Source: Cladochytrium replicatum (Eukaryota; Chytridiomycota; Chytridiomycetes; Cladochytriales; Cladochytriaceae). From it: a stretch of DNA of 64,000 nucleotides. Of this stretch, positions 4,667 through 53,948 are shown one piece after another (position 1 is the first letter of the stretch; each line of letters starts with the position of its first letter). The notes beneath the pieces are model-generated. The model was given only the letters and a program-made list of their open reading frames with translations. It ran no database searches and was not told the origin of the DNA. A program made the position numbers and the translations under genes. The DNA is taken from the NCBI GenBank assembly GCA_025526935.1, contig JAHLKD010000073.1, positions 1-64,000 of the forward strand. Direction: 5' to 3'.

Positions 4667-4777
4667 ACAACGGAAGTTCTGTAACAAACAATTTCTACCA
4701 CGACAGACCTCGAGAGCTGTGCTTTCTGTGCACCTGGACATTAGAGTCGGTAACGTTCCAGCCACACCACAGCAAAA

Positions 4778-13168: not shown

Positions 13169-13279
13169 ACAACGGAAGTTCTGTAACAAACAATTTCTAC
13201 CACGACAGACCTCGAGAGCTGTGCTTTCTGTGCACCTGGACATTAGAGTCGGTAACGTTCCAGCCACACCACAGCAAAA

Positions 13280-16200: not shown

Positions 16201-16320
16201 AATGATTCCCTAGATTCAAAAAGTGATGTTAGTGAGGATTTTGTAAAGGTGCATAATTTTGGCGAGGATTTTGATGTGGTATTAGAGTTGGAAGCAACTG
16301 ATGATAACCCACTCTTTTAA
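13280..16320 (+). pseudogene. hAT transposase, split by a solo LTR
   Basis: The first part (13,280-14,056) encodes 259 residues with a BED zinc finger. The second part (14,662-16,320) continues in the same frame once the LTR and one AGGAG copy are discounted, for a total of about 811 aa. The catalytic residues expected for hAT are visible: Asp in TADCWTS, Asp in TTDNGSN and Glu in APVERKFSAG. Also present are the Cys/His of CMAHIINL, the motifs TRWNSTF and LDPRFK, and a C-terminal hATC dimerisation region ending near MCRHDWL. I see no other lesion. As it stands the LTR ends the first frame one codon after the junction, so the gene cannot make full-length protein. Transposases of this family cut and paste DNA in the nucleus. 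Confidence 0.93.
14057..14656 (+). repeat. Solo family A LTR inside the transposase
   Basis: Exactly 600 bp, TGTTAAG to TTCAACA, flanked by AGGAG at 14,052-14,056 and 14,657-14,661. The matching duplication shows a clean insertion followed by LTR-LTR recombination. The same site carries the 5' LTR of A1 in hAT copy 1. Confidence 0.95.
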
Positions 16321-17690: not shown

Positions 17691-17703
17691 TGTCTGTCTG
17701 GGT

Positions 17704-17955
17704 AGAATAGGATTCTGTCCCCCCGGACACTTTCTCAACTCATTGACGGTACTTCAGTAATTTCTATCAGGTACAGCTAACCTCTCTATTAATGTTACTA
17801 GCAATAAGATTCTGTCCACCCGGACACTTTCTCAACTCATTGACGGTACTTCAGTGATCTCTATCAAGTACAGCTAACCTCTCTATCAATTTTACTAGCA
17901 ATAAGATTCTGTCCACCCGGACAGAATCCTCTCTATCAATGTTACTAGCCAGTTT
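17704..17955 (+). repeat. Short third 97-bp array, left-array orientation
   Basis: About two and a half units facing back toward the right array. The junction with that array (17,665-17,704) is unique sequence and would be the loop of a long inverted repeat. Confidence 0.88.
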
Positions 17956-18090
17956 CTTCCCTAGCTTATTATTATTTTCAGATCGGGTAGAAAACTATAG
18001 TGTCAGGGAAGTATTATAGCATACATTCCTGTAACATTCCGGCTAAGAACACCGGGCCAGTATCTTCCCACGACAAACAGTACAAACACC

Positions 18091-20272: not shown

Positions 20273-20757
20273 TACTGTCGTTTCGGCTTTTATAATTAAC
20301 CTGTGGCTATAGATATATGGAAATATCTAATATAAACATTATTCTCTCGAATAGAGAGATATAGATCCCAGTGATCGTTCACAATAACCATTGTGAGCAG
20401 AACATGAAGATTAGCTATAATCTTGTCCACAATGACATGTTCTCTATGAGAAATGAATATGTAGTACCTTGCATTAGTATCATACGAGATGTACTCGAGT
20501 ATGATATAACTGTCAGCAGCAAACTGATTAGCATCACATTCTTTCTCAAACGCGTGATCACTCGCAGAACTCTACTAGATTCCAATGAGTAAAGGAGGAT
20601 GTCTTCATGACCAATAGTTAGAAATGCCAGTTCTTTCATGTAATGTATGATTACGCATGAACTTGTCCCAGACGTCTCTGGTAAGGCTATTTCCCCTCAG
20701 TGTCGGTAGTGGATGAAGACTGGAGTAGCTAGTTCCATATATGTGCATGCATCAACA
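20273..20757 (-). repeat. Family B LTR, inverted and truncated
   Basis: Its 5' end (TGTTGATG on the minus strand) is intact at 20,757 and abuts forward B gag sequence, starting with GAGAG. About 200 bp of the LTR 3' end are missing. The intact junction recurs in inverted form at 42,180, where the GAGAG/CTCTC target duplication is complete. Confidence 0.88.
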
Positions 20758-23700: not shown

Positions 23701-25171
23701 TGGCAACATCATCCGATTCAAGGCACGATGGGTAGTTAGAGGGTTCTCCCAGATACAGGGAATGGATTTCGACAAAACCTATTCTCCTGTGGCGAAAACC
23801 ACTACAATTCGATTACTAGTTGCTCTTGCTGCAATTGTCAAATTACACATTTATCAATTTGACATTACAGGAGCATATCTCAATGCATCACTTGAGGAAG
23901 ATGTTTATGTTGAAATGCCCCATGGATTTACAGAGACTGACGAATCTGGCAATCCATTAGTTTGTAATCTTGTCAAAAGCTTATATTGTTTACATCAAGC
24001 TGCTAGAGAATGGTACAAATGCCTCTGGGCGAAATATGAAGACATGGGATACATCTGTGATCTTTCAGATGCTTGTCATTTCTGGCAAATGAAGTCATCT
24101 ACTCACAGTTCCACTGTGAAAATACGTGAACACACTACTGTTCATGTAGATGATATTCTTCATTTCTCTCCAGACCCAAATGGCTACCAGGACTTCATGG
24201 ATGGCTTGAATTCCTCATTCAAGGTCGGAAGTCACTCTACAGCCAAATGGATTCTGAAAATGCAATTGATCAAAACTACTCACGGCTATTTCATAACCAA
24301 TGCTCAATATGCAAAGGAAATATTGCAGAGATTGAAATTATGGGAATCCAATCTTAAACCAGCCAAAACACCTATTTCTTCTCACTACAAACATGACACA
24401 AGCTTGCCTATTTAATCCAAAAATGATGCAACTATTTTTCGCTCGGAACTCATGAAAATCTCGTACCTAGCTACAAAGACCAGACCTGATTTATCTTATG
24501 CTGTCAATGTCTTGGCACAACATCAGGTTGAACCACGAGTTTGCGAACAAAAGGCACTAGCTCGCCTGCATCGCTACTTATTGGGAACATGGGACTATAG
24601 TTTGCATTACACACGCAACAACATACCCACTCCCAACGTACACTCTGATGGTGTATATGAGTTTGCATCAAATGAACACATCCCTATGGGATATGCTGAT
24701 GCAGACTGGGCAAATGATCCTGCTTGCTATTCCAGGACAGGATATGTTGTAATGTTTGCCAATGCAGCTGTTTGCTGGCAGTCTACAAAGCAACAGGTTA
24801 TAACTTGCTCTTCCACTGAAGCAGAGTTATATGCATTGAATGAATTATCACGTGAGATGAAGTGGATGAAAAACCTCATGGCAACCATTGGTATTTCATC
24901 CAAAAGTAAGCCCATGATCCTCTGGCAAGATAATACCTCTACACAGTCTATTGCCAATGACCTGCTTAATGATCACAGAACTAAACACATGGATGTTCGA
25001 GAAAAGTTTGTGAATCTTCAAATTGAGCAGAAGCAGCAGGAAATCAGAGATATTGATACTGAGAACCAAATTCCTGATATTTTCACAAAACCCTTGACAT
25101 TCAAATTATTTTCAAAATTCACACGCGCACTTGGTCTTACACGTCAATCTGATTTGACCCTTGTTGACTAA
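20758..25171 (+). pseudogene. Ty1/copia Gag-Pol, family B, 5'-truncated
   Basis: Begins within Gag, followed by a CHHC knuckle (CVLHPNSSHSSAEC), a CX2CX4HX4C knuckle, protease DSGAT, integrase, RT with VHVDD and RNase H, in copia order. The frame is open apart from one TAA at 24,413-24,415, between RT and RNase H; reading resumes in the same frame at once. The Gag N-terminus is missing because an inverted LTR sits at its 5' edge. Purine tract and 3' LTR follow at 25,248 and 25,257. Family A and B proteins are clearly homologous but differ throughout. Confidence 0.92.
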
Positions 25172-27881: not shown

Positions 27882-28481
27882 TGTTAAGTATTTCGATTGA
27901 TGGACTTGGCCAATCCAGTCATTGATAGTACAAAAACACAAACGCCCGATATACAGAAATGTCACTCTTCACTGAGCAACATTTCTAACTATTGAACTAA
28001 AGCATATAGATGATGATCTATTACGAGTTTGGATACCTCCGGTTATTTCTTCATGGGTTATATTTATTGCAGCCATAGGTATAGTAAACTGTCATTACTT
28101 TTCTATCATCCACTTGTAGAAGTGAAGCCCGGATCAGATCACAGCAAAGGTTTACATATGATTAACGCGTTCGTGGGAATCATGTGTGAGAACAATCCTG
28201 TTGAGGAGAGCTAGATCTACGCACAGCTTAGCATGATTATGCTTCGCTACGCCTGTGAGAAGAAGAGTCAAACCTTATCGCTTCGATCCAGATCTTCCGG
28301 AAGGAAAAGCCAAAACGACAGTACACTTATTTAAGGAGCCTGTGGCGATACACACAAGGAGCATTCTCTTGCGCTAGTACTTGTGACTCGCAATCTTCTT
28401 TATTCATCTCTTAGAAACATTAACCCGTGAATCAGCAACACACACACAACCTGAGGATCCAGACCACAGCTTTGTTCAACA
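27882..28481 (+). repeat. 5' LTR of A3
   Basis: Contains a TATA-like TTATTTAA at 28,327-28,334 between two motifs shared with the family B LTR (28,306-28,323 and 28,336-28,350), so transcription probably starts just downstream. The internal sequence starts CAATAGTTACG. I could not assign the primer tRNA. Confidence 0.9.
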
Positions 28482-28532
28482 CAATAGTTACGAATCGTTG
28501 CTTAACACATTTCTTTGGACAACAACGACAAG

Positions 28533-31500
28533 ATGGGTTCAGGATCGAATGACACCACATCTTCGCGGCCGAAGCCATTCACCGGTAAAACGCTGCAGGA
28601 TTTCGATCTGTACATGGAACAAGTGCAGACTTACGCAAACTTACGTGGCGGCGCTGGCACTATGCTTCTCCAAGAACCAATGGCTCTTCCTGATAATCCG
28701 AATTACGAGGCGGAAGGAAATCGCCCACAGCGTCCGATAGTCATCGCCGGAGCTGCTGGCGGAGCTGCTAACGAAGCACGAGCACAATGGGAAGCAGAAC
28801 TACGTGAACATTTGGCGATCGTCACACACAACAGTCACTTACGTACGCAATATCGTGCTGAGATGCAAGATTACCGTGCACAACAAGCGGACAATAACGT
28901 CGCAGTTGGAATTCTATGCGAATGTTTCCCAAAACGCGACATGAATCGAGTCAGAGCTTATGCGTCAGCAAAAGGCAAAGTCGATGGACTTCGCCGAATT
29001 TTCAGTGCTGGCGGTCAAGCTCCGATCGAATCGTCTATGTGGGAGCAACGGCTGGTAGATCTGAAATGTACGAACGGTCAGTCGGCAGAAAGCGTTCAGC
29101 AGTTTGTGACCGACCTCACTGAGTTATTCGAACTCAAACTGAACTCTTTACCGGACGAACTCGTAATCAAGGATCTACTAAACCGGTTAGTCGCAAAAAT
29201 CACGATGCAGACAATTGAACTACGGACCCTCGTACCTTTTCTCGGAAAAATGATCACTTCTGCGTATGCCGAATGGGAACCGGCGTTAATACAAGATCCA
29301 ATTGATGCTGCAAATCCGAATGCTCCGCGACCATTCCACCAAAAGCCAACGCATTACTTCGAAACAGTGTCAAATATCTTGACCGACCTCAACCAATTGG
29401 TCCAACTCAACGTCACCATGGATGCCGGTGGGCCGAATGGGACAAAGAAGGCCATGAAGGCAAAGGCGAAGAAAGCGAAGGCGAAAGCGAAAGCCAAGGT
29501 TGCGAAGTCGGAGGATATTTGTACCTTGCATCCGAACTCATCTCACACCAATGCTCAATGCCGTAAGCAGGGTGCCTCGAGTGGCTCAGGCAGTAGCGGT
29601 GGGAGTAGCAGTTCCACTCGGACCAGGCAGTCGCAGGACTCCAGGTCGTCCACATCTTCTTCTGCAAAGAAGACAGATCTCACATGCAATTTCTGTGGCA
29701 AACGAGGACACAAGCAGTCGGCGTGTAAACGCTATCTCACTGCAAAGAGTCTTTGTTTAGACACGGATTTTCGTGCATTCATTGCCAGCCGTGGCGATGC
29801 AGGTGATGATTCGTCGGAGGACGAATCTACCGCCAAACCGGTGTTGACCAAGAAGGTAATCTTTGACCTTACCCAACCTACTTCTGTTGATAAAGATGCT
29901 GACACATACATCGGAAATATGTTTTCGATAGTGAACGCACACTCGGCACAGAAGGTTGTCCGTGTACATGTTCAAGCAAAGGATCGTGTGGGTTTGCTTG
30001 ATACAGGCGCAACTGTTTGGATGACACCTAATCGTCATGCCTTTAGTTCGCTGACGTATACGAATGACGAGGACGTGGTGGAACTAGCGGATAGTCATAC
30101 AATTCCAGTTTGTGGTTTTGGAGATGTATCTGTAGTTTTACCCAATGGGCGAATTAAGATAATACACAACGCACTTTATGTTCCTGATCTCGAAGACACA
30201 CTTGCATCAGTGTGTAGTATCATTGGAGACTCCGGGGACATTGTGAGTTTCACCAAAGACAAGGTTATCCTCACGCATGGTGATACGGATGAACACGTTA
30301 TTATTGGGCGACGGGAAAGAGATTTGTACTATCTCTATGCTGATGTTAGTACCGTCGGAACTCACCAACCGCGGCATGCGATTGCTCAACGAGCTAAAGC
30401 AGTAGCGGTATCCGCAGAAGGTCTCGATCAGTCGATGGACTTTACGTCCGGTGTACGATCTTCTCACGCGATGGGTCTCGATGTAATGTCAGACAACAAC
30501 ATTCGTCAAACGAACGATGATGAATGTCAACGAGCATCTCAAGATACAGTTGGAGTGAGCACCAACTTATCGCCAGTGACAGTACACGAACTTGCAAAGT
30601 TACACCAGCAGTTTGGTCACATCCACTTACGGACGATCTTTCGAACGGCAGAGAAGCTCAACATCAAAATGCCCAAGGTTGAACCGGATGCATTCAATCT
30701 TGTCAACAAATCAATTATGCAGAATTGTTTGGTCTGTAGTCGCACAAAGCTGAAGCAGAAGCCGATTTATTCTACAATAAGTCGAGCTCCGAGGAAACTT
30801 TTCCGTCTGTTTTCCGATGTCGTACGTTTAATCTACGACAGACAGAAGAAGAGATATTGGCAGATCATTGTCGACGAACAACCTCGTTTCATCACAATCT
30901 ACTTCCTGAATCGAAAGAGTGATGCGGTGGATAGTATGATTCGACATATCGCTGATGTGGAAAATCGCAATCACCCATTACACGTTGCTGAACTACGTTC
31001 CGATTCAGGAGAATTGATTACTAAACGGTTGATCCAATGGTGCAATACCAAGATTCCTCGCATCCGCGTCCACCCAGCTCCTCCGTCAGTAAAGGAACTC
31101 GATGGTCTATCAGAGCGGAATATACAATCGATCAAGTATATGTCGGACGCGATGCTGCTACAAGCTGGACTACCACGAACACTTCAATTCGTGCAACTCT
31201 CCATCCTATACGCTGCGGTCGTCAAGAACGCTACTTTCCATTCAGCTGTGAATGCGATTCCGTACTGTGCTTACCTTGACAAGCGGATAGATTTGGCAAC
31301 TATCCACGCCTTTGGAACACTTGTTAGTTTGTGGATCTCACACGAACAAAGGTTGGCGCGCAGAATCCGAGACAAGTCTGAACTAGGTCTGTTTCTCGGA
31401 TACAAGGGTGAAGACCTGAAGATCGTCATAGCACTCAATTTTCGGACAAACACAATAGGCGAATACTTCCATGTTACGTTCCACGAGGGAGTTTTTGTTG

Positions 31501-33716
31501 GTTATAATCCTACCCGACAGTTACTCGACGATCTTACGGTACAATATCCACTGAAGGCCGGGACATATTTCGATGTTGATCAAATACCAACCGGGGATCA
31601 GGGGGTGCAAGAGACGACTGTTGAGTTTGTCTCAGACAATTTCCCGATTTCTACCGTTGCAGACGAAGAAATCGATGAGGATATAAACGACGACCCCATA
31701 TATTACCGCTTAGAAGAAGCCGGTGACATGCATGTTGTTGAACATTTACATGGACTAGACGATGATGACCCAGACGATGCTGATTATGATCCAAATGCTG
31801 ATTTATCGACTCCACAATCCATTACTGAAGAATCTCCGAATTTGTCTTCCGTATCTCCTGTAGAGGAATATGATGCACAACTCGAAAGTGATCTTCAATT
31901 CATTGGAGAAGATGTCGACGAAGCATATGCAGCAAGAAAACGAAAACGTCAAGCAAGTGCAAATTTGTCGAACGCCAAAAGGAAACAAAATTCCTTGTTT
32001 ACCCGGTCCGTTCCTAATATCGATTGGACCCTGAAGGCCGATTCCTCATATCCAACACAACCAATTGCGAATGGAAATATACGGACTGCACCAAAGACTC
32101 TTCGTGAGGCTTTATCACGATCCGATGAGGCTCCATTCTGGTTAGCGGCGATGAAGGAGGAAGTTACACAACTAGTCGGCAACAATACTTGGGCTGAAAC
32201 GTTTTTACCTGATGGACGGAATTTATTATCGGGCAAATGGGTGTTCACATATAAGCTTGACGAACATGGCAATGTTACTCGATTCAAAGCACGTTGGGTC
32301 GTACGAGGATTTTCACAGATTGAAGGATTGGATTTCGATGAAACCTATTCTCCAGTTACGAAAACGTCCACGATCCGTTTTCTGATTGCATTAGCAGCAT
32401 TAGTCGGCATGATCATATTCCAGTTTGATATCAAGGGTGCATATCTCAATGCGATACTGGAAGAAGAGAACTACGTCGAACTCCCTCATGGTTTCGGACG
32501 AGTAGATTTCCAGAATCGACCCATCGTCTGCAGACTTATCAAAAGTCTGTACGGTCTACACCAGGCAGCTCGAGAATGGTACAAAACTCTTTGGAAACAA
32601 TATCTCAGTGTTGGTTTCGTGCGGAATATTGCAGACATCTGTCATTTCTGGCGATACAATCCAACAAATAATACCCGCGAACACACTACCGTTCATGTCG
32701 ATGATATACTACATTTTTCCACAGATCCAAACGCATATCATCGGTTTCAGACCGATTTGGAAACTTCGTTCACAGTAGGCAGTACTTCGAAGGCGAAATG
32801 GATTCTGAAAATGGAGTTATTGCAGACAACGGAAGGATATTTCCTTAGCAATGCATTGTACGTAAAGAAGATTCTCGAAGAAGCGAATTTATGGGGTACC
32901 AACATCAAACCGACCAAAACACCGATGTCAAAATCATATATCTTTGATGAGACCACACCAACACTGTCCGATGCCGAGGCAACACAATTTCGATCAATGT
33001 TAATGAAGATATCGTACGTGGCGACTAAGACACGACCGGATATTTCATACGCAGTCAATATTTTGGCACAACATCAGATTGATCCTCGACAGTCAGAATC
33101 AAAGGCTCTCTATCGATTACAACGATATTTACTCGGTACTTGGGATTACGGTTTACACTATACACGGACTGGTATCACGTCTCCGATGCTAAGACCCGAC
33201 GGTCTCTACATGTTTGATTCGGCTAACAACCCACAAGGTTATGCCGATGCAGACTGGGCGGGCGATGCAGATAGATACTCACGAACCGGTTACGTGGTAA
33301 TGTTCGCTAATGCGGCAATCAGTTGGCAGTCGATTCGACAACAGACTATTGCAGCCTCGTCGTCGGAAGCCGAACTGTATGCGCTGAACGAACTATCGCG
33401 TGAGATGAAGTGGATGAAAAATCTTATGACGGGTATTGGAATTACGTCGTTCAATCCGCTCCGTTTATGGCAAGACAATCAATCCACCGAGTCTATCGCA
33501 AACAATCTGTTCAACAACAAACGGACCAAACACATGGACGTTCGCGAGAGATTTGTGAATCTCCAAGTTGAACAGAAACATCAGGAGTTACACCATATGG
33601 ATACTTCTGATATGATCGCGGACATCTTAACTAAACCTCTTGGAAGTAAATTATACCTTAAACACAGGGGCTCGTTGGGGCTAGTCAGTCAGTCTTCACT
33701 TAATATACTATCTTGA
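28533..33716 (+). CDS. Family A Gag-Pol polyprotein, intact
   Basis: 1,727 aa in one frame, counted from the first ATG. In order: helical Gag; a K/A-rich tract near residues 300-320; a CHHC knuckle near 328; a CX2CX4HX4C knuckle at 385-398; protease LDTGAT near 489; integrase HHCC near 690 and D-D-E (VDE, RSDSGE, LSERN); a linker rich in acid residues; RT from about 1,245 with the catalytic pair in VHVDD near 1,388; RNase H to about 1,690 with ADADWAG and SSSEAELYAL. This is the copia order Gag-PR-IN-RT-RH. His replaces the usual Tyr of YVDD, as it does in family B. A single frame implies that Gag excess must come from splicing or processing; a candidate intron lies at 29,856-29,931. Confidence 0.95.
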   Translation: MGSGSNDTTSSRPKPFTGKTLQDFDLYMEQVQTYANLRGGAGTMLLQEPMALPDNPNYEAEGNRPQRPIVIAGAAGGAANEARAQWEAELREHLAIVTHNSHLRTQYRAEMQDYRAQQADNNVAVGILCECFPKRDMNRVRAYASAKGKVDGLRRIFSAGGQAPIESSMWEQRLVDLKCTNGQSAESVQQFVTDLTELFELKLNSLPDELVIKDLLNRLVAKITMQTIELRTLVPFLGKMITSAYAEWEPALIQDPIDAANPNAPRPFHQKPTHYFETVSNILTDLNQLVQLNVTMDAGGPNGTKKAMKAKAKKAKAKAKAKVAKSEDICTLHPNSSHTNAQCRKQGASSGSGSSGGSSSSTRTRQSQDSRSSTSSSAKKTDLTCNFCGKRGHKQSACKRYLTAKSLCLDTDFRAFIASRGDAGDDSSEDESTAKPVLTKKVIFDLTQPTSVDKDADTYIGNMFSIVNAHSAQKVVRVHVQAKDRVGLLDTGATVWMTPNRHAFSSLTYTNDEDVVELADSHTIPVCGFGDVSVVLPNGRIKIIHNALYVPDLEDTLASVCSIIGDSGDIVSFTKDKVILTHGDTDEHVIIGRRERDLYYLYADVSTVGTHQPRHAIAQRAKAVAVSAEGLDQSMDFTSGVRSSHAMGLDVMSDNNIRQTNDDECQRASQDTVGVSTNLSPVTVHELAKLHQQFGHIHLRTIFRTAEKLNIKMPKVEPDAFNLVNKSIMQNCLVCSRTKLKQKPIYSTISRAPRKLFRLFSDVVRLIYDRQKKRYWQIIVDEQPRFITIYFLNRKSDAVDSMIRHIADVENRNHPLHVAELRSDSGELITKRLIQWCNTKIPRIRVHPAPPSVKELDGLSERNIQSIKYMSDAMLLQAGLPRTLQFVQLSILYAAVVKNATFHSAVNAIPYCAYLDKRIDLATIHAFGTLVSLWISHEQRLARRIRDKSELGLFLGYKGEDLKIVIALNFRTNTIGEYFHVTFHEGVFVGYNPTRQLLDDLTVQYPLKAGTYFDVDQIPTGDQGVQETTVEFVSDNFPISTVADEEIDEDINDDPIYYRLEEAGDMHVVEHLHGLDDDDPDDADYDPNADLSTPQSITEESPNLSSVSPVEEYDAQLESDLQFIGEDVDEAYAARKRKRQASANLSNAKRKQNSLFTRSVPNIDWTLKADSSYPTQPIANGNIRTAPKTLREALSRSDEAPFWLAAMKEEVTQLVGNNTWAETFLPDGRNLLSGKWVFTYKLDEHGNVTRFKARWVVRGFSQIEGLDFDETYSPVTKTSTIRFLIALAALVGMIIFQFDIKGAYLNAILEEENYVELPHGFGRVDFQNRPIVCRLIKSLYGLHQAAREWYKTLWKQYLSVGFVRNIADICHFWRYNPTNNTREHTTVHVDDILHFSTDPNAYHRFQTDLETSFTVGSTSKAKWILKMELLQTTEGYFLSNALYVKKILEEANLWGTNIKPTKTPMSKSYIFDETTPTLSDAEATQFRSMLMKISYVATKTRPDISYAVNILAQHQIDPRQSESKALYRLQRYLLGTWDYGLHYTRTGITSPMLRPDGLYMFDSANNPQGYADADWAGDADRYSRTGYVVMFANAAISWQSIRQQTIAASSSEAELYALNELSREMKWMKNLMTGIGITSFNPLRLWQDNQSTESIANNLFNNKRTKHMDVRERFVNLQVEQKHQELHHMDTSDMIADILTKPLGSKLYLKHRGSLGLVSQSSLNILS
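29856..29931 (+). other. Candidate alternative intron between Gag and protease
   Basis: 76 bp, starting GTAATC, with TGCTGAC 29 bases before a terminal ATAG. Joining the ends gives AAG-AAG-TGA, so the spliced message would encode Gag with both knuckles (441 aa) and stop. The inverted element at 35,430-41,913 lacks exactly this segment; the other four copies with the region keep it. Confidence 0.72.
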
Positions 33717-33833
33717 ACGACCGGCTGGCGATGTCCATACAACTCACCTTTATTTCAATAGAATATCAACTTCAGCATTTACAGAAAGTTATGATCGGTT
33801 GAGTGATACTCTCGGTTGTACCTATCTAATGAC

Positions 33834-33843
33834 TGAGGGGGTG
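33834..33843 (+). other. Polypurine tract of A3
   Basis: GAGGGGGTG immediately before the 3' LTR; the equivalent in family B is GCGGGGGTG at 25,248-25,256. Expected site of plus-strand priming. Confidence 0.8.
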
Positions 33844-34444
33844 TGTTAAGTATTTCGATTGATGGACTTGGCCAATCCAGTCATTGATAGTACAAAAACA
33901 CAAACGCCCGATATACAGAAATGTCACTCTTCACTGAGCAACATTTCTAACTATTGAACTAAAGCATATAGATGATGATCTATTACGAGTTTGGATACCT
34001 CCGGTTATTTCTTCATGGGTTATATTTATTGCAGCCATAGGTATAGTAAACTGTCATTACTTTTCTATCATCCACTTGTAGAAGTGAAGCCCGGATCAGA
34101 TCACAGCAAAGGTTTACATATGATTAACGCGTTCGTGGGAATCATGTGTGAGAACAATCCTGTTGAGGAGAGCTAGATCTCACGCACAGCTTAGCATGAT
34201 TATGCTTCGCTACGCCTGTGAGAAGAAGAGTCAAACCTTATCGCTTCGATCCAGATCTTCCGGAAGGAAAAGCCAAAACGACAGTACACTTATTTAAGGA
34301 GCCTGTGGCGATACACACAAGGAGCATTCTCTTGCGCTAGTACTTGTGACTCGCAATCTTCTTTATTCATCTCTTAGAAACATTAACCCGTGAATTAGCA
34401 ACACACACACAACCTGAGGATCCAGACCACAGCTTTGTTCAACA
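33844..34444 (+). repeat. 3' LTR of A3
   Basis: 601 bp. It differs from the 5' LTR by one base present at GATCTCACG and by T for C at GTGAATTAG. Confidence 0.93.
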
Positions 34445-35429
34445 CAGTCGGCAGAAAGCGTTCAGCAGTTTGTGACCGACCTCACTGAGTTATTCGAACT
34501 CAAACTGAACTCTTTACCGGACGAACTCGTAATCAAGGATCTACTAAACCGGTTAGTCGCAAAAATCACGATGCAGACAATTGAACTACGGACCCTCGTA
34601 CCTTTTCTCGGAAAAATGATCACTTCTGCGTATGCCGAATGGGAACCGGCGTTAATACAAGATCCAATTGATGCTGCAAATCCGAATGCTCCGCGACCAT
34701 TCCACCAAAAGCCAACGCATTACTTCGAAACAGTGTCAAATATCTTGACCGACCTCAACCAATTGGTCCAACTCAACGTCACCATGGATGCCGGTGGGCC
34801 GAATGGGACAAAGAAGGCCATGAAGGCAAAGGCGAAGAAAGCAAAGGCGAAAGCGAAAGCCAAGGTTGCGAAGTCGGAGGATATTTGTACCTTGCATCCG
34901 AACTCATCTCACACCAATGCTCAATGCCGTAAGCAGGGTGCCTCGGGTGGCTCAGGCAGTAGCGGTGGGAGTAGCAGTTCCACTCGGACCAGGCAGTCGC
35001 AGGACTCCAGGTCGTCCACATCTTCTTCTGCAAAGAAGACAGATCTCACATGCAATTTCTGTGGCAAACGAGGACACAAGCAGTCGGCGTGTAAACGCTA
35101 TCTCACTGCAAAGAGTCTTTGTTTAGACACGGATTTTCGTGCATTCATTGCCAGCCGTGGCGATGCAGGTGATGATTCGTCGGAGGACGAATCTACCGCC
35201 AAACCGGTGTTGACCAAGAAGGTAATCTTTGACCTTACCCAACCTACTTCTGTTGATAAAGATGCTGACACATACATCGGAAATATGTTTTCGATAGTGA
35301 ACGCACACTCGGCACAGAAGGTTGTCCGTGTACATGTTCAAGCAAAGGATCGTGTGGGTTTGCTTGATACAGGCGCAACTGTTTGGATGACACCTAATCG
35401 TCATGCCTTTAGTTCGCTGACGTATACGA
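34445..35429 (+). pseudogene. Gag-protease of A2, 3' part, truncated
   Basis: Resumes A2 Gag after the A3 insertion and runs through both knuckles and the protease LDTGAT, retaining the 76-bp candidate intron. It ends at CGTATACGA, where an inverted A LTR begins. The open frame continues into the LTR to 35,509 but that tail is not element protein. Confidence 0.9.
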
Positions 35430-36029
35430 TGTTGAACAAAGCTGTGGTCTGGATCCTCAGGTTGTGTGTGTTGCTAATTCACGGGTTAATGTTTCTAAGA
35501 GATGAATAAAGAAGATTGCGAGTCACAAGTACTAGCGCAAGAGAATGCTCCTTGTGTGTATCGCCACAGGCTCCTTAAATAAGTGTACTGTCGTTTTGGC
35601 TTTTCCTTCCGGAAGATCTGGATCGAAGCGATAAGGTTTTGACTCTTCTTCTCACAGGCGTAGCGAAGCATAATCATGCTAAGCTGTGCGTGAGATCTAG
35701 CTCTCCTCAACAGGATTGTTCTCACACATGATTCCCACGAACGCGTTAATCATATGTAAACCTTTGCTGTGATCTGATCCGGGCTTCACTTCTACAAGTG
35801 GATGATAGAAAAGTAATGACAGTTTACTATACCTATGGCCGCAATAAATATAACCCATGAAGAAATAACTGGAGGTATCCAAACTCGTAATAGATCATCA
35901 TCTATATGCTTTAGTTCAATAGTTAGAAATGTTGCTCAGTGAAGAGTGACATTTCTGTATATCGGGCGTTTGTGTTTTTGTACTATCAATGACTGGATTG
36001 GCCAAGTCCATCAATCGAAATACTTAACA
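35430..36029 (-). repeat. 3' LTR of the inverted A element
   Basis: 600 bp, carrying the CCTCCAGTT variant also seen in A1 and the solo LTR, unlike A2 and A3, which have CCTCCGGTT. Confidence 0.92.
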
Positions 36030-36156
36030 CACCCCCTCAGTCATTAGATAGGTACAACCGAGAGTATCACTCAACCGATCATAACTTTCTGTAAATGCTG
36101 AAGTTGATATTCTATTGAAATAAAGGTGAGTTGTATGGACATCGCCAGCCGGTCGT

Positions 36157-39100
36157 TCAAGATAGTATATTAAGTGAAGACTGACTGACTAGCCCCAACG
36201 AGCCCCTGTGTTTAAGGTATAATTTACTTCCAAGAGGTTTAGTTAAGATGTCCGCGATCATATCAGAAGTATCCATATGGTGTAACTCCTGATGTTTCTG
36301 TTCAACTTGGAGATTCACAAATCTCTCGCGAACGTCCATGTGTTTGGTCCGTTTGTTGTTGAACAGATTGTTTGCGATAGACTCGGTGGATTGATTGTCT
36401 TGCCATAAACGGAGCGGATTGAACGACGTAATTCCAATACCCGTCATAAGATTTTTCATCCACTTCATCTCACGCGATAGTTCGTTCAGCGCATACAGTT
36501 CGGCTTCCGACGACGAGGCTGCAATAGTCTGTTGTCGAATCGACTGCCAACTGATTGCCGCATTAGCGAACATTACCACGTAACCGGTTCGTGAGTATCT
36601 ATCTGCATCGCCCGCCCAGTCTGCATCGGCATAACCTTGTGGGTTGTTAGCCGAATCAAACATGTAGAGACCGTCGGGTCTTAGCATCGGAGACGTGATA
36701 CCAGTCCGTGTATAGTGTAAACCGTAATCCCAAGTACCGAGTAAATATCGTTGTAATCGATAGAGAGCCTTTGATTCTGACTGTCGAGGATCAATCTGAT
36801 GTTGTGCCAAAATATTGACTGCGTATGAAATATCCGGTCGTGTCTTAGTCGCCACGTACGATATCTTCATTAACATTGATCGAAATTGTGTTGCCTCGGC
36901 ATCGGACAGTGTTGGTGTGGTCTCATCAAAGATATATGATTTTGACATCGGTGTTTTGGTCGGTTTGATGTTGGTACCCCATAAATTCGCTTCTTCGAGA
37001 ATCTTCTTTACGTACAATGCATTGCTAAGGAAATATCCTTCCGTTGTCTGCAATAACTCCATTTTCAGAATCCATTTCGCCTTCGAAGTACTGCCTACTG
37101 TGAACGAAGTTTCCAAATCGGTCTGAAACCGATGATATGCGTTTGGATCTGTGGAAAAATGTAGTATATCATCGACATGAACGGTAGTGTGTTCGCGGGT
37201 ATTATTTGTTGGATTGTATCGCCAGAAATGACAGATGTCTGCAATATTCCGCACGAAACCAACACTGAGATATTGTTTCCAAAGAGTTTTGTACCATTCT
37301 CGAGCTGCCTGGTGTAGACCGTACAGACTTTTGATAAGTCTGCAGACGATGGGTCGATTCTGGAAATCTACTCGTCCGAAACCATGAGGGAGTTCGACGT
37401 AGTTCTCTTCTTCCAGTATCGCATTGAGATATGCACCCTTGATATCAAACTGGAATATGATCATGCCGACTAATGCTGCTAATGCAATCAGAAAACGGAT
37501 CGTGGACGTTTTCGTAACTGGAGAATAGGTTTCATCGAAATCCAATCCTTCAATCTGTGAAAATCCTCGTACGACCCAACGTGCTTTGAATCGAGTAATA
37601 TTGCCATGTTCGTCAAGCTTATATGTGAAAACCCATTTGCCCGATAATAAATTCCGTCCATCAGGTAAAAACGTTTCGGCCCAAGTATTGTTGCCGACTA
37701 GTTGTGTAACTTCCTCCTTCATCGCCGCTAACCAGAATGGAGCCTCATCGGATCGTGATAAAGCCTCACGAAGAGTCTTTGGTGCAGTCCGTATATTTCC
37801 ATTCGCAATTGGTTGTGTTGGATATGAGGAATCGGCCTTCAGGGTCCAATCGATATTAGGAACGGACCGGGTAAACAAGGAATTTTGTTTCCTTTTGGCG
37901 TTCGACAAATTTGCACTTGCTTGACGTTTTCGTTTTCTTGCTGCATACGCTTCGTCGACATCTTCTCCAATGAATTGAAGATCATTTTCGAGTTGTGCAT
38001 CATATTCCTCTACAGGAGATACGGAAGACAAATTCGGAGATTCTTCAGTAATGGATTGTGGAGTCGATAAATCAGCATTTGGATCATAATCAGCATCGTC
38101 TGGGTCATCATCGTCTAGTCCATGTAAATGTTCAACAACATGCATGTCACCGGCTTCTTCTAAGCGGTAATATATGGGGTCGTCGTTTATATCCTCATCG
38201 ATTTCTTCGTCTGCAACGGTAGAAATCGGGAAATTGTCTGAGACAAACTCAACAGTCGTCTCTTGCACCCCCTGATCCCCGGTTGGTATTTGATCAACAT
38301 CGAAATATGTCCCGGCCTTCAGTGGATATTGTACCGTAAGATCGTCGAGTAACTGTCGGGTAGGATTATAACCAACAAAAACTCCCTCGTGGAACGTAAC
38401 ATGGAAGTATTCGCCTATTGTGTTTGTCCGAAAATTGAGTGCTATGACGATCTTCAGGTCTTCACCCTTGTATCCGAGAAACAGACCTAGTTCAGACTTG
38501 TCTCGGATTCTGCGCGCCAACCTTTGTTCGTGTGAGATCCACAAACTAACGAGTGTTCCAAAGGCGTGGATAGTTGCCAAATCTATCCGCTTGTCAAGGT
38601 AAGCACAGTACGGAATCGCATTCACAGCTGAATGGAAAGTAGCGTTCTTGACGACCGCAGCGTATAGGATGGAGAGTTGCACGAATTGAAGTGTTCGTGG
38701 TAGTCCAGCTTGTAGCAGCATCGCGTCCGACATATACTTGATCGATTGTATATTCCGCTCTGATAGACCATCGAGTTCCTTTACTGACGGAGGAGCTGGG
38801 TGGACGCGGATGCGAGGAATCTTGGTATTGCACCATTGGATCAACCGTTTAGTAATCAATTCTCCTGAATCGGAACGTAGTTCAGCAACGTGTAATGGGT
38901 GATTGCGATTTTCCACATCAGCGATATGTCGAATCATACTATCCACCGCATCACTCTTTCGATTCAGGAAGTAGATTGTGATGAAACGAGGTTGTTCGTC
39001 GACAATGATCTGCCAATATCTCTTCTTCTGTCTGTCGTAGATTAAACGTACGACATCGGAAAACAGACGGAAAAGTTTCCTCGGAGCTCGACTTATTGTA

Positions 39101-41263
39101 GAATAAATCGGCTTCTGCTTCAGCTTCGTGCGACTACAGACCAAACAATTCTGCATAATTGATTTGTTGACAAGATTGAATGCATCCGGTTCAACCTTGG
39201 GCATTTTGATGTTGAGCTTCTCTGCCGTTCGAAAGATTGTCCGTAAGTGGATGTGACCAAACTGCTGGTGTAACTTTGCAAGTTCGTGTACTGTCACTGG
39301 CGATAAGTTGGTGCTCACTCCAACTGTATCTTGAGATGCTCGTTGACATTCATCATCGTTCGTTTGACGAATGTTGTTGTCTGACATTACATCGAGACCC
39401 ATCGCGTGAGAAGATCGTACACCGGACGTAAAGTCCATCGACTGATCGAGACCTTCTGCGGATACCGCTACTGCTTTAGCTCGTTGAGCAATCACATGCC
39501 GCGGTTGGTGAGTTCCGACGGTACTAACATCAGCATAGAGATAGTACAAATCTCTTTCCCGTCGCCCAATAATAACGTGTTCATCCGTATCACCATGCGT
39601 GAGGATAACCTTGTCTTTGGTGAAACTCACAATGTCCCCGGAGTCTCCAATGATACTACACACTGATGCAAGTGTGTCTTCGAGATCAGGAACATAAAGT
39701 GCGTTGTGTATTATCTTAATTCGCCCATTGGGTAAAACTACAGATACATCTCCAAAACCACAAACTGGAATTGTATGACTATCCGCTAGTTCCACCACGT
39801 CCTCGTCATTCGTATACGTCAGTGAACTAAAGGCATGACGATTAGGTGTCATCCAAACAGTTGCGCCTGTATCAAGGAAACCCACACGATCCTTTGCTTG
39901 AACATGTACACGGACAACCTTCTGTGCCGAGTGTGCGTTCACTTCTTGGTCAACACCGGTTTGGCGGTAGATTCGTCCTCCGACGAATCATCACCTGCAT
40001 CGCCACGGCTGGCAATGAATGCACGAAAATCCGTGTCTAAACAAAGACTCTTTGCAGTGAGATAGCGTTTACACGCCGACTGCTTGTGTCCTCGTTTGCC
40101 ACAGAAATTGCATGTGAGATCTGTCTTCTTTGCAGAAGAAGATGTGGACGACCTGGAGTCCTGCGACTGCCTGGTCCGAGTGGAACTGCTACTCCCACCG
40201 CTACTGCCTGAGCCACCCGAGGCACCCTGCTTACGGCATTGAGCATTGGTGTGAGATGAGTTCGGATGCAAGGTACAAATATCCTCCGACTTCGCAACCT
40301 TGGCTTTCGCTTTCGCCTTCGCTTTCTTCGCCTTTGCCTTCATGGCCTTCTTTGTCCCATTCGGCCCACCGGCATCCATGGTGACGTTGAGTTGGACCAA
40401 TTGGTTGAGGTCGGTCAAGATATTTGACACTGTTTCGAAGTAATGCGTTGGCTTTTGGTGGAATGGTCGCGGAGCATTCGGATTTGCAGCATCAATTGGA
40501 TCTTGTATTAACGCCGGTTCCCATTCGGCATACGCAGAAGTGATCATTTTTCCGAGAAAAGGTACGAGGGTCCGTAGTTCAATTGTCTGCATCGTGATTT
40601 TTGCGACTAACCGGTTTAGTAGATCCTTGATTACGAGTTCGTCCGGTAAAGAGTTCAGTTTGAGTTCGAATAACTCAGTGAGGTCGGTCACAAACTGCTG
40701 AACGCTTTCTGCCGACTGACCGTTCGTACATTTCAGATCTACCAGCCGTTGCTCCCACATAGACGATTCGATCGGAGCTTGTCCGCCAGCACTGAAAATT
40801 CGGCGAAGTCCATCGACTTTGCCTTTTGCTGACGCATAAGCTCTGACTCGATTCATGTCGCGTTTTGGGAAACATTCGCATAGAATTCCAACTGCGACGT
40901 TATTGTCCGCTTGTTGTGCACGGTAATCTTGCATCTCAGCACGATATTGCGTACGTAAGTGTTGTTGTGTGTGACGATCGCCAAATGTTCACGTAGTTCT
41001 GCTTCCCATTGTGCTCGTGCTTCGTTCGCAGCTCCGCCAGCAGCTCCGGCGATGACTATCGGACGCTGTGGGCGATTTCCTTCCGCCTCGTAATTCGGAT
41101 TATCAGGAAGAGCCATTGGTTCTTGGAGAAGCATAGTGCCAGCGCCGCCACGTAAGTTTGCGTAAGTCTGCACTTGTTCCATGTACAGATCGAAATCCTG
41201 CAGCGTTTTACCGGTGAATGGCTTCGGCCGCGAAGATGTGGCGTCATTCGATCCTGAACCCAT
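36157..41263 (-). pseudogene. Gag-Pol of the inverted A element, spliced form
   Basis: Gag starts at ATG 41,263. A one-base loss near 40,955 (ACAACAACAC where A3 has ACAACAGTCAC) breaks the frame within Gag. Gag then reads cleanly to a TGA at 39,939-39,941, created where 76 bp are missing. Pol resumes in another frame from the protease (LDTGAT) through integrase, RT (VHVDD) and RNase H to 36,157 with no further lesion. Apart from these two changes it tracks A3 almost residue for residue. Confidence 0.92.
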
Positions 41264-41314
41264 CTTGTCGTTGTTGTCCAAAGAAATGTGTTAAGCAACG
41301 ATTCGTAACTATTG

Positions 41315-41913
41315 TGTTGAACAAAGCTGTGGTCTGGATCCTCAGGTTGTGTGTGTTGCTAATTCACGGGTTAATGTTTCTAAGAGATGAATAAAGAAGA
41401 TTGCGAGTCACAAGTACTAGCGCAAGAGAATGCTCCTTGTGTGTATCGCCACAGGCTCCTTAAATAAGTGTACTGTCGTTTTGGCTTTTCCTTCCGGAAG
41501 ATCTGGATCGAAGCGATAAGGTTTGACTCTTCTTCTCACAGGCGTAGCGAAGCATAATCATGCTAAGCTGTGCGTGAGATCTAGCTCTCCTCAACAGGAT
41601 TGTTCTCACACATGATTCCCACGAACGCGTTAATCATATGTAAACCTTTGCTGTGATCTGATCCGGGCTTCACTTCTACAAGTGGATGATAGAAAAGTAA
41701 TGACAGTTTACTATACCTATGGCCGCAATAAATATAACCCATGAAGAAATAACTGGAGGTATCCAAACTCGTAATAGATCATCATCTATATGCTTTAGTT
41801 CAATAGTTAGAAATGTTGCTCAGTGAAGAGTGACATTTCTGTATATCGGGCGTTTGTGTTTTTGTACTATCAATGACTGGATTGGCCAAGTCCATCAATC
41901 GAAATACTTAACA
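41315..41913 (-). repeat. 5' LTR of the inverted A element
   Basis: 599 bp. Its outer edge sits in family B gag after GGATG (minus-strand sense). Confidence 0.92.
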
Positions 41914-46473: not shown

Positions 46474-47466
46474 ATGGCAACCCCTATGGACATGGGCAAC
46501 ACTTCCAGAGCACCGTTGGACACTCAGCAACAAATCGTCACGGATGCTACCCAAGAACCTCAGCCAACTATGGAAGCGTACATTCTCTCACTCGAAAAAC
46601 GCATCTCCGAACTTGAAAACACCAAGATTGCGACCTCTTCCAAGGTCAAGATCAAGGATCCCGAATCTTTCTCGGGTCATCGAAACAAGACTCGACTCTT
46701 CTTGACGCAGATCGACGACAAGTTCGCCGCGGAACCGTTACAGTACCCTACGGACGAAATCAAGATCATTGCGGTTAAAGCTTGGACTATTGGAAATGCC
46801 CGTGATTGGATTTACTCTTACTGTGAACAATGACGCAACGCAGGCTTTGGACTCTCATGGGCCATGCTTCGATACGAAATCTTGCAAGTCTTTGGTGAAG
46901 ACAATCGAAAGCTTAATGCCCAGCGAAAGCTTGAAACTCTCCGCCAGACTGGCTCGACTTCTGCATATCTCTCCGAATTCTCGAAACTCGCCGCTGAATC
47001 TGGATACAACGAGGACGCTCTGTACCGCCTGTTCAAAGCTGGGTTAAAAGACAAAGTTCGCGAATTACTGATGCCCTTCCCTCGCTCTCACTTTAAAAAT
47101 CTTGCCGACTACCAAGCTCGTGCTGTTGAAATCGATCAAGATTTGTTTGACCATAGCAAGGGCAGACAACCAACTCGCGATACGAATTCCAACTCCAGAT
47201 CTCGACAGAATCCTCAATCTTCTTATTCTTCTGGCCCTACTCCGATGGATTTAGACAACATGCAAACTCAATCCCGAAAACTTACCGCTACCGAACGCGA
47301 AGAGCGCCGCAAAGCCAGCAAGTGCTTCTACTGCCGCGAATCTGGTCACCTCGTCCACGAATGCCCTAAGCGCCCGAAACGTCGCGACGGTGATTCCTCT
47401 GGTAGTTCACAAACGACTACGACCGCTGCATCTTCTTTGTCGTTGGGAAACGCGAAGCGCCAGTGA
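46474..47466 (+). pseudogene. Gypsy Gag, one nonsense codon
   Basis: From ATG 46,474, with a coiled-coil-like start, a capsid-like region (residues 60-230) and a CX2CX4HX4C knuckle (CFYCRESGHLVHEC) near residue 284. An in-frame TGA at 46,831-46,833 interrupts it and reading resumes at once. Gag ends at TGA 47,464-47,466, overlapping the pol frame, with a slippery heptamer just upstream. Confidence 0.9.
47445..47451 (+). promoter_or_regulatory. Candidate -1 ribosomal frameshift heptamer G GGA AAC
   Basis: GGGAAAC is phased to the Gag frame as X-XXY-YYZ and a -1 slip enters the pol frame, open from there. It lies 12 bases before the Gag stop. Downstream, GCGCCAG (47,457-47,463) can pair with CTGGTGC (47,481-47,487), a possible stimulatory stem. 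Confidence 0.6.
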
Positions 47467-50400
47467 ACGAGTCTGGCTCTCTGGTGCAAATCAAATCGGA
47501 CAAAGATATTCAGATCAGTATTCTTTCCCTGCATCCCCAGAAACATTTTACTTTCACTGTTACCTTGTTTTCAGAGAACTCTCGAACCAATCTTGTTGCT
47601 TTCCTTGATACTGGCTGCACCGATTATCTTCTTCATCCTCGAATCGTTGAAAAACTTCTTTTGAATCCTCAACCCACCGAATCTCCTCTCAAAGTTCGAC
47701 TTGGTGATGGCACCTATGTTGCTAATCCTGTTGAGTTCGAAACTGAACCCCTTATGCTTGCTTTTGGTACTCACATTGAGAAAAAGACTTTCCGCATTTT
47801 CGAATCAAAACACGATCTCGTTCTCCCTCTCGCCTGGCTCGAAGAACATAACCCGCAAATCAACTGGGTTACAAAGCAAATTTTCTTCAACGGCGATTTC
47901 TGCAAATTGCATTGTGTTTCTTCCACACCTCTTCCTTCTTCTGTTGACTCCGATCTCGACTCCCTCTTCTTTGAACACTTCTTCAACGACCCCCTTCTTG
48001 ATGTTTATGTTCGAGATGCAATTCCGTTAAATTCGTCTACGATCGCTGTTCCGCTCTCTTTTGCTACCGTTGTTCTTACGAAGGACCATGCTTCAACGAC
48101 CGTTCCTGTTGACGATCGTGGTGTCCCTCTGATTCTCGCCAGCTTCTCTGATGTTTTTGCTACGAAAGACGAACTTTCAGCAAATCCTACAATTCTGTTA
48201 CATCGTACCTACGATTGCCCTGTCGACCTTGAACCGGGGAAACCTCTTCCTCCATTGTCTCCCATCTACACTTTGAACGATCACGAACACGAAGAGCTAC
48301 GAAAGTATATTGATGATGCTCTCCGCCGTGGTTGGATTCGACCCTCGACTTCTCCGATGGCTGCCCCTATTTTCTTCGTTCCGAAAGAGAATGGTGGAAT
48401 TTGGCCCGCTGTTGACTATCGCCGTTTAAATACAATAACGATCTAGAATCGGTATCCCATACCTTTGTTTTCTGACATGGTTAACTGTTTGCGTTATGCC
48501 CGTTGGTTCACACAGCTTGATCTCCCGAATGCCTACCATCTTCTTCGCATCCGTCAAGGCGATGAGTGGAAAACTGCCTTCCGCTGTCGTTGTGGGTTAT
48601 TCGAGTACCTTGTTGTTCCCTATGGACTTACCAACGCTCCCGCTGCATTCCAGCACTTCATGAACGATATCTTGAAAGATCACCTCGACCGCTACGTTGT
48701 TGTTTATTTAGACAACATCCTGATCTACTCCGAAGATTTCGATACTCACGTTGATCACGTCAGAGCCGTTCTTACTTCTCTGCATAAGCATGCCGTCCCC
48801 GTCAATCCGAAGAAATGCTCTTTCTTTGTTGAAGAGATTGACTTCCTTGGCCACTGGTTCTCTGCCCAAGGTGTTAAAATGGATAATCGCAAACTTGCCG
48901 CTGTTCGCGACTGGCCTACACCTACCTCAGTTAAGCAACTTCAATCGTTCCTTGGATTCTGCAATTATTATCGCCGTTTCATTCGCAACTTCGCTCATGT
49001 TGCTCGCCCGCTCACTACGCTCCTTCGCAAATCAGTTTCCTTTGAATGGACCGATCCTTGACAGAATGCTTTTAATCTACTGAAGGCCCTCTTTACCTCT
49101 GCTCCCTTTCTCCGTCATTTTGATCCCGCTCTGCCGACCATTGTCGATACCGATGCTAGTGACTTCGCTCTTGCTGGTGTCGTTTCGCAACTTCATGACG
49201 ATGGTCTTCATCATCCGGTTGGCTTTCATTCTCGTCAGTTCACTCCTGCCGAAGCCAACTACGATACGCACGATAAGGAATTATTAGCGATTGTTGATTC
49301 TTTGGATCATTTCCGCGCTCTTTTACTTCCACTCACCTCATTCACTGTTCGCTCGGACCATAACAATCTTCGATATTTTGCCACGAAGCGTGTCCTCAAT
49401 CGCCGACAAGCTCGTTGGGCTTCTCTTCTTGCCGACTCTCGTTTCGAAATTCAGTATCGTCCAGGCACTTCTAACGGCAACGCTGACGCTTTAAGTCGCC
49501 GGAGCGACTTCTCGTTAGGAGGGGATAGTTTCACAACTGAACTAACCAAACAGCTCTTACCTTCTGTTCCAGTCGATTTCGCCGACCTCGAAATTTCTGA
49601 CGATTCCGATTCCGTTGATCCTCAACCCCCGAAACCAAAACTTATTGATGACATAGTCGAAGCTTGGAGCTCCCCCGACAGTGCCGAACTGAAGGAAACT
49701 CTCCTTAAGAAAACAAACTTCACACAGAAGAACAATCTTGTACTTACCAAGGATGGACTATTGTTGTCCCTACCGATACTCTTCGATTCTGTATTCTCGA
49801 ATACCGACACGATTCTCCCTTGGCTGGCCATTTCGGATCCGCTAAGACTCTCGAACTAATTCTACGTGACTTCTATTGGCCTGGCATTACAAAATGGGTT
49901 CGACGCTATACACGTACCTGCGAAGTATGCCAATGACAAAAACTTGCTCGACAAGCTCCTGCCGGTCTTCTCCAGCCTATTCCGTCCGATCCACCATTTG
50001 GAACTTGGACTATGGATTTAGTTACCGCTCTTCCTCCTATTGGCACTTACGATGCCATTGCGGTATTTGTAGAAAAGGCTACTAAGTTCCTAGTTATTGC
50101 CCCCTGTAGCTCGAAGATTGATGCCGAATTCTCTGCTTACCTCTTTCTCGATAACGTCTTTAAGAACCATGGTCTCCCTAGAAAGATCATCACCGATCGA
50201 GGCCCTCAGTTCCAGTCAAAATTCTGGAAACGCTTCTTCGAACTTCTTGGTGTGAAACGTGCACTCTCTACTGTGTTCCACCCTCAGACCGATGGACAAT
50301 CCGAGAACCTGAATAAAACCGTTCAGCAATATCTTCGATGTTTCGCAAGCGCCCAACCTACCCTCTGGCTTCAATATCTTCCTCTCGCTGCGTTCGCTTA

Positions 50401-51084
50401 CAACAACTCCGTCAATGCGACTACTGGCTTCTCTCCGTTCTTTGCAATATACGGTCGTAATCTCTCGTTTGATCCCGAACTTCCCACGATCTCCTTTGTT
50501 CCTAAAGCCGAAGCGAAAGCCGAACAGATCAAGGCTATCCACGAGGAACTTCTCGCTCAGATCCGATTCTCACAACAGTCCCAGAAACTTTATGCCGATC
50601 GACACCGACGTTCCGCTCCGAAATACGAAATCGGAAATAAAGTCTGGCTCATCGCAACCAATGTAAAGACCACTGCAAACAAGAAGTTAGCTGACAAGAA
50701 ACTCGGACCTTTCAAGATCATCGGAAAGATCAACGATCTCGCTTTCAAGCTTGACTCACCTTCAACCCTGAAGATTCATCCTGTTTTCCACGTCAGTCTC
50801 CTCGACCCTGTCGAAACTTGGGACTTGCGCGAAAAAGTTGGTTTGACACCTCCAACTCCCGATCATGCCGAAGTCATTTCTGACTCTCCCGAACCGAATC
50901 GATCATCCACGTTCATAGATCCACAGATTCCCCGACTCGCTATCTCATCAAATGGAAAGATCGCCCCGAATCCGAGAACTCCTGGGAATTCGCCTCCGAT
51001 GTTCCTGATCTTGATAGACTCCTCGAAGATTATTTCGTTCGACATCCCGGCGCTCCTGCTCTCAATTCCCCCTCCGAATCTTGA
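47451..51084 (+). pseudogene. Gypsy Pol with C-terminal chromodomain, broken
   Basis: Protease FLDTGCTDYLL near 47,605; RT with FTQLDLPNAY and VVYLDN at 48,705-48,716 (the second catalytic Asp of YxDD is Asn); RNase H with VDTDASDFALAGV and ADALSRR; integrase CEVCQ, MDLV, ITDRGPQF and GQSENLN; then a chromodomain (TRYLIKWKDRPESENSWE) ending at TGA 51,084. Lesions: TAG 48,444, TGA 49,059, a frame change near 49,800, TGA 49,934 and a frame change near 50,900-50,930 just before the chromodomain. In living chromoviruses the chromodomain directs insertion to marked chromatin. Confidence 0.92.
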
Positions 51085-51125
51085 TATAAGGTGAATATGG
51101 AACTTCACCGCTAAGGGGAGAATGA

Positions 51126-52884: not shown

Positions 52885-53948
52885 ATGAGCACCACGGCAA
52901 AGACCATCCGTTTGGCACTCATACAGCTGCTGGTCGGGAAGAACAAGGAGGCTAACATCTTGGCTGCGAAGAAGAGAGTTCTTGATGCCGCAAAGGCCGG
53001 TGCACAGGTGGTCGTTTTGCCAGGTAGGCGACATTGTGCCTCCAAGATGCTATAATCAACGTATTTTGCGTATATCTCATGAATGGTTGAAAAGAATGTT
53101 TCAACTCCCCGTAAGTCCTTGCGCGATTACTTCTTATCAAGTACACGAACTTGCTGCTTGTTCTCTCCTTCCAGCTATGGCACAAAATACTTCCCCGAAT
53201 ATGCCGAAGAAATCCCCAACGGGCCAACGACCAAAGCCCTCTCCGAAATCGCAAAAGAAGCCAAAGTCTGGCTCGTCGGCGGCTCCATCCCCGAGAAAAT
53301 CTCCACCTCGTCCTCAACAAAGTTCTACAACACTTGCACGGTCTACGACCCCACCGGGGCCATCGTGACAAAGTACTCCAAATGCCACCTGTTCGACATC
53401 GACATCCCTGGCAAGATCCGATTCCAGGAATCCGAGATCCTAAGCCCGGGGAACTCGTGGTGCGACTTCGAGACCCCGTACGGGAAGATTGGCGTCGGGA
53501 TATGCTATGATATCCGCTTCCCGGAACTGGCAATGGTGCATGCGAGGAAAGGTTGCGTTGCAGTGCTGTACCCCGGCGCGTTCAACATGACCACGGGTCC
53601 GCTTCACGTATGGCTAAAATCACAGAAAACGTTCTTTGATTAATGACAGCCGCTTTATTGGTGCAGTGGGAGCTGCTTCAGCGTGCGAGGGCCGTGGATA
53701 ACCAGATCTACGTCGCGGCGTGCTCGCCTGCGCGTGATACGTCGGCGGATTATGTTGCATGGGGACATTCGACGGCGGTAGGACCGATGGGACAGATCCT
53801 TGCAAAGGCGGGGGAAGGAGACGAAACTGTGTTTGCGGACATTGACGTCGACGCGATGCACGAGGCTCGAGCTGGTATCCCGGTTTACTCGCAGAGGCGA
53901 TTTGATCTCTATCCTGATGTGACTGCTGGGGCGAAAGATGCTGTTTAA
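52885..53948 (+). CDS. NIT2: Omega-amidase Nit2 (nitrilase superfamily)
   Basis: Exons 52,885-53,023, 53,095-53,110 (16 nt), 53,175-53,607 and 53,667-53,948 give 289 aa; human NIT2 has 276. The enzyme hydrolyses alpha-ketoglutaramate and alpha-ketosuccinamate to the 2-oxo acid and ammonia in cytosol or mitochondria. The nitrilase Glu-Lys-Cys triad is visible: Glu in LPECFNSPYG, Lys in [13 protein letters not shown] and Cys in [13 protein letters not shown]. The Glu codon is split, with G on exon 1 and AA on the micro-exon. All junctions are GT-AG (introns of 71, 64 and 59 bp). I chose the ATG at 52,885 because residues from [13 protein letters not shown] onward fit the family; frame is open upstream but enters VPS20. 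Confidence 0.94.

Follow-up and report, generated by a model that had tools for sequence, protein, structure and literature searches.

The abstract of the barley BARE1 study (PMC3735527) counts among the major questions on LTR elements how one RNA is divided between the roles of message and genome. BARE1 carries a GT-AG intron of 104 nt at the gag/pr boundary, the removal of which shifts the frame and leads to a stop three residues beyond Gag; according to its authors, in the part of the text available, the element must avoid replicating spliced RNA (PMC3735527). A spliced Gag-only RNA (shGAG) is also known from the Copia element EVD of Arabidopsis, for which PMC8892269 cites Oberlin et al. 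2017, and the excerpted text of that paper describes splicing as coupled to premature polyadenylation. Drosophila copia was the comparison chosen in the preliminary description of the DNA analyzed here. Copia does make Gag from a spliced RNA, but splicing there takes out almost the whole of pol, about 2950 nt (PMC3735527, in excerpt), whereas the introns described below comprise 76 and 79 nt; BARE1 and EVD are the closer precedents.

We analyzed a stretch of 64,000 nucleotides from the chytrid Cladochytrium replicatum (the window) and searched the 50.5-Mb assembly to which it belongs (198 contigs). The window contains two related Copia families, A and B, in both of which a facultative spliceosomal intron, homologous between the two, would lie between the zinc knuckle of Gag and the protease. 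Their splicing layout appears to be that of BARE1: a small facultative intron at the end of gag, a single gag-pol frame when it is retained (PMC3735527, in excerpt) and, as in BARE1 and EVD, a stop just after the join. Most likely, RNA splicing gives these elements a message for Gag alone, as it does in BARE1 and EVD. They differ from BARE1 in their host, which there is a plant, and in their genomic footprint, since intronless DNA copies could not be amplified from barley according to the same partial text, whereas both chytrid families contain them. In place of an exclusion of spliced RNA from replication of the BARE1 type, we found intronless genomic copies at three places in A and three in B. 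Furthermore, Arabidopsis Copia introns are longer than gene introns in the part of PMC8892269 available, whereas those of A and B have about the size of the host introns in the window. Taking the sequence evidence as a whole, we consider it very probable that both families possess a facultative Gag intron and that their spliced RNA has been reverse-transcribed into the genome.

Both families have the Ty1/Copia order (PR, IN, RT) with a reverse transcriptase of the RVT_2 type. In family A, copy A2 (element 27882-34444, with the target duplication CAGTC on both sides) carries a single gag-pol frame at 28533-33716 on the plus strand, in which Pol_BBD is followed by SH3_retrovirus (26.8 bits, just below the cut-off of 27) and RVT_2 (E 4.7e-50). 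A 5-bp duplication, GGGAA, also stands on both sides of an LTR insertion in loci L018 and L034. No match to the integrase core (rve) was obtained in the pieces of families A and B scanned, and no homologues were detected at E 0.001 for the piece of A Gag (7997 candidates scored) or for a 540-aa open reading frame (7992 candidates scored). At least three further Copia families with different linkers occur among the Pol_BBD matches listed (C11:155488, C96:182372 and C4:382657; loci L083, L084 and L085).

Unspliced, the A2 frame comprises 1733-1736 codons and remains open through a segment of 76 nt at 29856-29931, which begins with GTAATC and ends with CGATAG. The same segment was located on the plus strand in A0 (552-627), A1 (7528-7603) and A3 (35222-35297). 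A branch-site-like TGCTGAC lies at 29897-29903, with 29 nt after the A of CTGAC up to the intron end; the splice-like ends and the position of this motif had been described correctly. The segment has a G+C content of 37% as compared to 53% in its flanks. A usual splice donor has G at position +5, which the family A donor GTAATC lacks. Without the segment, the frame reads VLTKK and then stops at the join. The preliminary description had placed this stop immediately after the zinc knuckles; the junction does create it, but A2 Gag has, by motif, a single CCHC knuckle (29685-29726, plus strand), and the stop follows 43 residues past its last cysteine.

A host gene in the window served as a yardstick for intron size. 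The omega-amidase/NIT2-like gene at 52885-53948 (plus strand) contains GT-AG introns of 71, 64 and 59 nt. Its product, spliced by hand, was 100% identical over the whole length to a carbon-nitrogen hydrolase of C. replicatum (a database protein of 289 aa); this protein matches the exon joins, and introns of 59-71 nt are thus used in host gene models. The earlier statement that the length of the family A intron equals that of host introns is approximately right, but at 76 and 79 nt the Copia introns slightly exceed those of the host gene.

The segment is exactly absent from the inverted family A element at 35430-41913 on the minus strand, as had been claimed. The splice-like join AAG|TGA lies at 39939-39942; the 76 nt are missing between 39941 and 39942, and 39939-39941 form the new in-frame TGA. 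The pol frame is still open over 1261 codons (36157-39942), which fits a recent origin. The 5' LTR (41315-41913) and the 3' LTR (35430-36029), both on the minus strand, are complete and identical in 601 of 602 aligned columns. In gag, a further base is lost near 40962, a change found in none of the 59 other rows of a 60-row comparison, and over its last 556 bases gag shows no difference from several fetched copies that carry the intron. On one side the element adjoins A3 pol, and on the other it borders on sequence without a match to family A.

It had also been proposed that the spliced copy was inserted after reverse transcription. The element ends, however, show no matching 5-bp target duplication (TACGA versus CATCC). 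The present form of the element would hence go back to a later exchange or to a join made during assembly; besides such a join, the missing duplication could be explained by an exchange between copies or by the cDNA having recombined with a resident copy.

The assembly was searched with a 30-base pattern of the family A join, allowing up to three mismatches. The join was found at three places, namely in the window copy (contig C73) and on contigs C57 and C143. Thus, the loss is not peculiar to the window copy, and the expectation of further family A copies lacking the same 76 bp at other sites was borne out by two of them. At the same mismatch level, the donor-intact pattern occurred at 242 places; genome-wide, the acceptor pattern was likewise found at 242 and the upstream gag anchor at 234 places, all of these being counts that miss badly decayed copies.

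The distance between gag and PR was then taken from 78 paired family A rows, which represent fetched DNA only, count overlapping loci more than once and are limited to rows having both a complete gag piece and a PR piece within 200 nt. The gap amounted to 76 nt in 69 rows and to 0 in seven rows (three distinct places), while one row each showed 74 nt, by a loss of 2 nt near the donor, and 65 nt, by a loss of 11 nt inside the intron. Deletions of similar size with scattered ends, which had been named as evidence against splicing, were not observed in these rows. Outside this count, L067 is cut inside the intron, its match starting only at 29896 in mid-intron, L048 lacks a partner downstream, and L066 and L069 carry two single-base gaps each in the intron. 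GT and AG showed no substitution in 81 BLAST hits covering the intron and short flanks (overlapping loci, one hit partial). As the donor pattern had been used to fetch many of these loci, the invariant GT says little about the donor, and we take the intact ends as weak support for splicing.

An independent test was provided by family B, whose gag-pol frame lies at 20741-24415 on the plus strand and contains a CCHC motif, Pol_BBD, SH3_retrovirus (31.4 bits) and RVT_2 (E 2.4e-44). A 79-nt GT-AG intron (GTACAA...TCACAG, 21212-21290, plus strand) was picked from the sequence of the linker between knuckle and protease before the genome was searched. Its exact loss is predicted to give AAG|CAT TGA, that is, a stop one codon after the join; the G+C content is 32% in the intron and 45% in the flanks. 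The search used exact flanking anchors with a gap of 0-30, so that all losses of 68-98 nt fall within its reach. It yielded three places (C77, C95 and C145), and all three had exactly the predicted join, which supports the earlier proposal of reverse transcription of spliced RNA. Three is a lower bound, since no mismatch was allowed in the anchors. The donor-intact B pattern occurred at 80 places (up to three mismatches), and the 79 nt were kept in ten fetched intron-bearing copies as well as in L087 and the window copy, except for 80 nt in L093.

In matched pieces of 300 bases, families A and B share about 64-66% identity. With the knuckle's first cysteine as the starting point, the donor comes after codon 57 in A and after codon 56 in B, and the acceptor lies at 82.33 codons in both; the spliced tails run for 57 residues each from the knuckle start to the stop. 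GT-AG pairs spaced by 55-100 nt that bring a stop within two codons amount to 5 of 23 in A, the observed intron among them, and to 1 of 13 in B, which is the observed intron itself. The linkers are poorly conserved, and a gapped protein alignment did not line up the two donors; homology of the introns rests on distances and phase.

The sequence around the joins bears on the number of spliced RNAs copied back, which had been given as one. The C57 copy differs from the nearest fetched intron-bearing copy at 10 of 556 positions and the C143 copy at 26 of 523; apart from itself, the C143 gag stretch found nothing closer than 92% among 40 matches scored genome-wide. Over the stretches compared, no allele was common to two intronless A copies and confined to intronless copies. 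A single loss common to the window and C143 copies, suggested by 30050A, was weakened as a candidate when exact matches with this allele turned up at 14 places, including at least one with the intron (L070); likewise, 29831T, which had linked C57 and C143, occurs at three donor-intact places. In family B, too, no variant was common to two intronless copies and confined to them over the stretches compared. The C95 copy has 20985G and 21169C in common with the intron-bearing L091, and the other two intronless B copies lack both. In family A the backgrounds thus favour separate losses; recombination among hundreds of copies could nevertheless move one loss around, so that the strict minimum for this family is one event. 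That spliced RNA was copied agrees with the earlier reading, but each family would have contributed one such RNA or more, several being favoured by the backgrounds.

Apart from the window copy, four of the five intronless copies (C57, C143, C77 and C145) are truncated or rearranged close to the join, which counts against the splicing interpretation. The C143 copy (L043 5750-7547) additionally shows an untidy loss of 59-61 bp just after the join and, inside the PR region, a stretch about 66% similar to family A RT. As this loss begins with GT, a second spliced intron was considered; this candidate was dropped because the right end does not form a clean AG join.

Exact joins might also have arisen by deletion of DNA, by chance or guided by microhomology, or by skipping of the reverse transcriptase, the GT-AG ends then being a coincidence. 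Such a deletion is formally possible because AG is present at both segment ends in A as well as in B, and both the unrelated untidy deletion in C143 and the truncated L067 speak for it. On the other hand, the same base-exact loss recurs at three A and three B loci in different backgrounds, the open search in B yielded the predicted join only, and the losses of 11 and 2 nt are the sole other length changes in the 78 paired A rows; we therefore regard a deletion as exceedingly improbable. The opposite order of events, with an ancestral intronless state and later insertion of the 76- and 79-nt segments, draws on nothing beyond the existence of both states, and its probability appears practically negligible: intronless copies account for 3 of about 245 places in A and 3 of about 83 in B and are nested among intron-bearing ones, the 3' part of gag in the window copy does not differ from that of intron-bearing copies, without the segment there is no single gag-pol frame, and A and B agree in intron distance and phase.

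Two further readings accept a spliced RNA but differ in the machinery that copied it or in whether splicing serves the element. Copying by LINE-type machinery, in the fashion of a processed pseudogene, would give an intron loss that looks alike. A transcript starting inside the LTR yields no whole 5' LTR without LTR-type strand transfer. The near-identical LTR pair of the window copy and the alignment of C143 to a whole 5' LTR (two of the six intronless copies) point to LTR-type reverse transcription and make the LINE route very improbable. Alternatively, splicing may be real but purposeless, with a cryptic intron in a linker of low G+C content being tolerated by the element. The weak donor of family A is in line with this idea, which we consider unlikely, since A and B agree in intron distance and phase and both have their stop no more than one codon past the join, and BARE1 and EVD have the same layout for Gag.

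The preferred reading is thus a Gag intron whose spliced RNA re-entered the genome. With the intron retained, the segment would be coding and the single frame would be read through, which links Gag to Pol. Upon its removal the frame would shift and end 57 residues from the knuckle start, so that only Gag is made; in analogy to BARE1 and EVD, such a message would provide Gag in excess. Apart from the intron, the spliced message would be of full length and keep both ends of the element, and could for this reason serve as a template for reverse transcription. A prematurely ended RNA, as described for EVD, would presumably not yield a complete element like the window copy. In living cells, spliced RNA would occasionally be packaged and reverse-transcribed, and the cDNA would either insert into the genome or recombine with a resident copy, giving rise to intronless copies such as that at 35430-41913.

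Intronless copies make up about 1% of family A and about 4% or more of family B. On balance, we lean towards the view that the spliced Gag-only message is not kept apart from replication in these elements and that it has been packaged and reverse-transcribed at a rate that can be read from the genome, with several independent events per family. The mechanism itself is known; the host group is apparently new, and the genomic footprint appears unusual. No prior report of genomic copies that lack a Copia Gag intron, or of a chytrid with an intron of this kind, was found among the titles and abstract beginnings of open-licence PMC papers on splicing of Copia and LTR elements, a collection outside which subscription journals mostly lie.

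In one fungus, two families thus appear to let spliced RNA leak back into the DNA, with joins precisely at the splice sites, and such a leak can therefore be counted without RNA. If this is true, a genome keeps a lasting account of the degree to which an LTR element holds its Gag message and its genome apart, and the base-exact scan can be applied to any genome with young Copia families. Gag splicing by a short intron in a chytrid, far from the plant cases, suggests that this strategy is older or has been invented more often than the plant elements reveal.

Several other elements were observed in and around the window. A hAT transposase reading frame is located at 14647-16320 on the plus strand (Dimer_Tnp_hAT, E 3.3e-21), and a broken-up Gypsy-type element at 46864-51094, also on the plus strand, has Retrotrans_gag with CCHC, RVT_1, RT_RNaseH, rve and a Tf2-1-like SH3 domain in separate open reading frames. 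Scans of the window with Rfam (gathering threshold) and for tRNAs found nothing. Beside Copia copies there are three arrays of a 96-97-base tandem unit (3716-4709, 12218-13211 and 16358-18058), the first two of which are nearly identical over about a kilobase. In many contigs family A is densely clustered; C64:262540-286568, for instance, contains six copies. Dense clusters are also described for CoLT, a Copia-like transposon of Phytophthora centromeres, the host being an oomycete (PMC7082073, in excerpt); the stem "splic" does not occur in the main text of that paper. Together, the tandem arrays and the dense family A clusters may indicate a centromere-like region.
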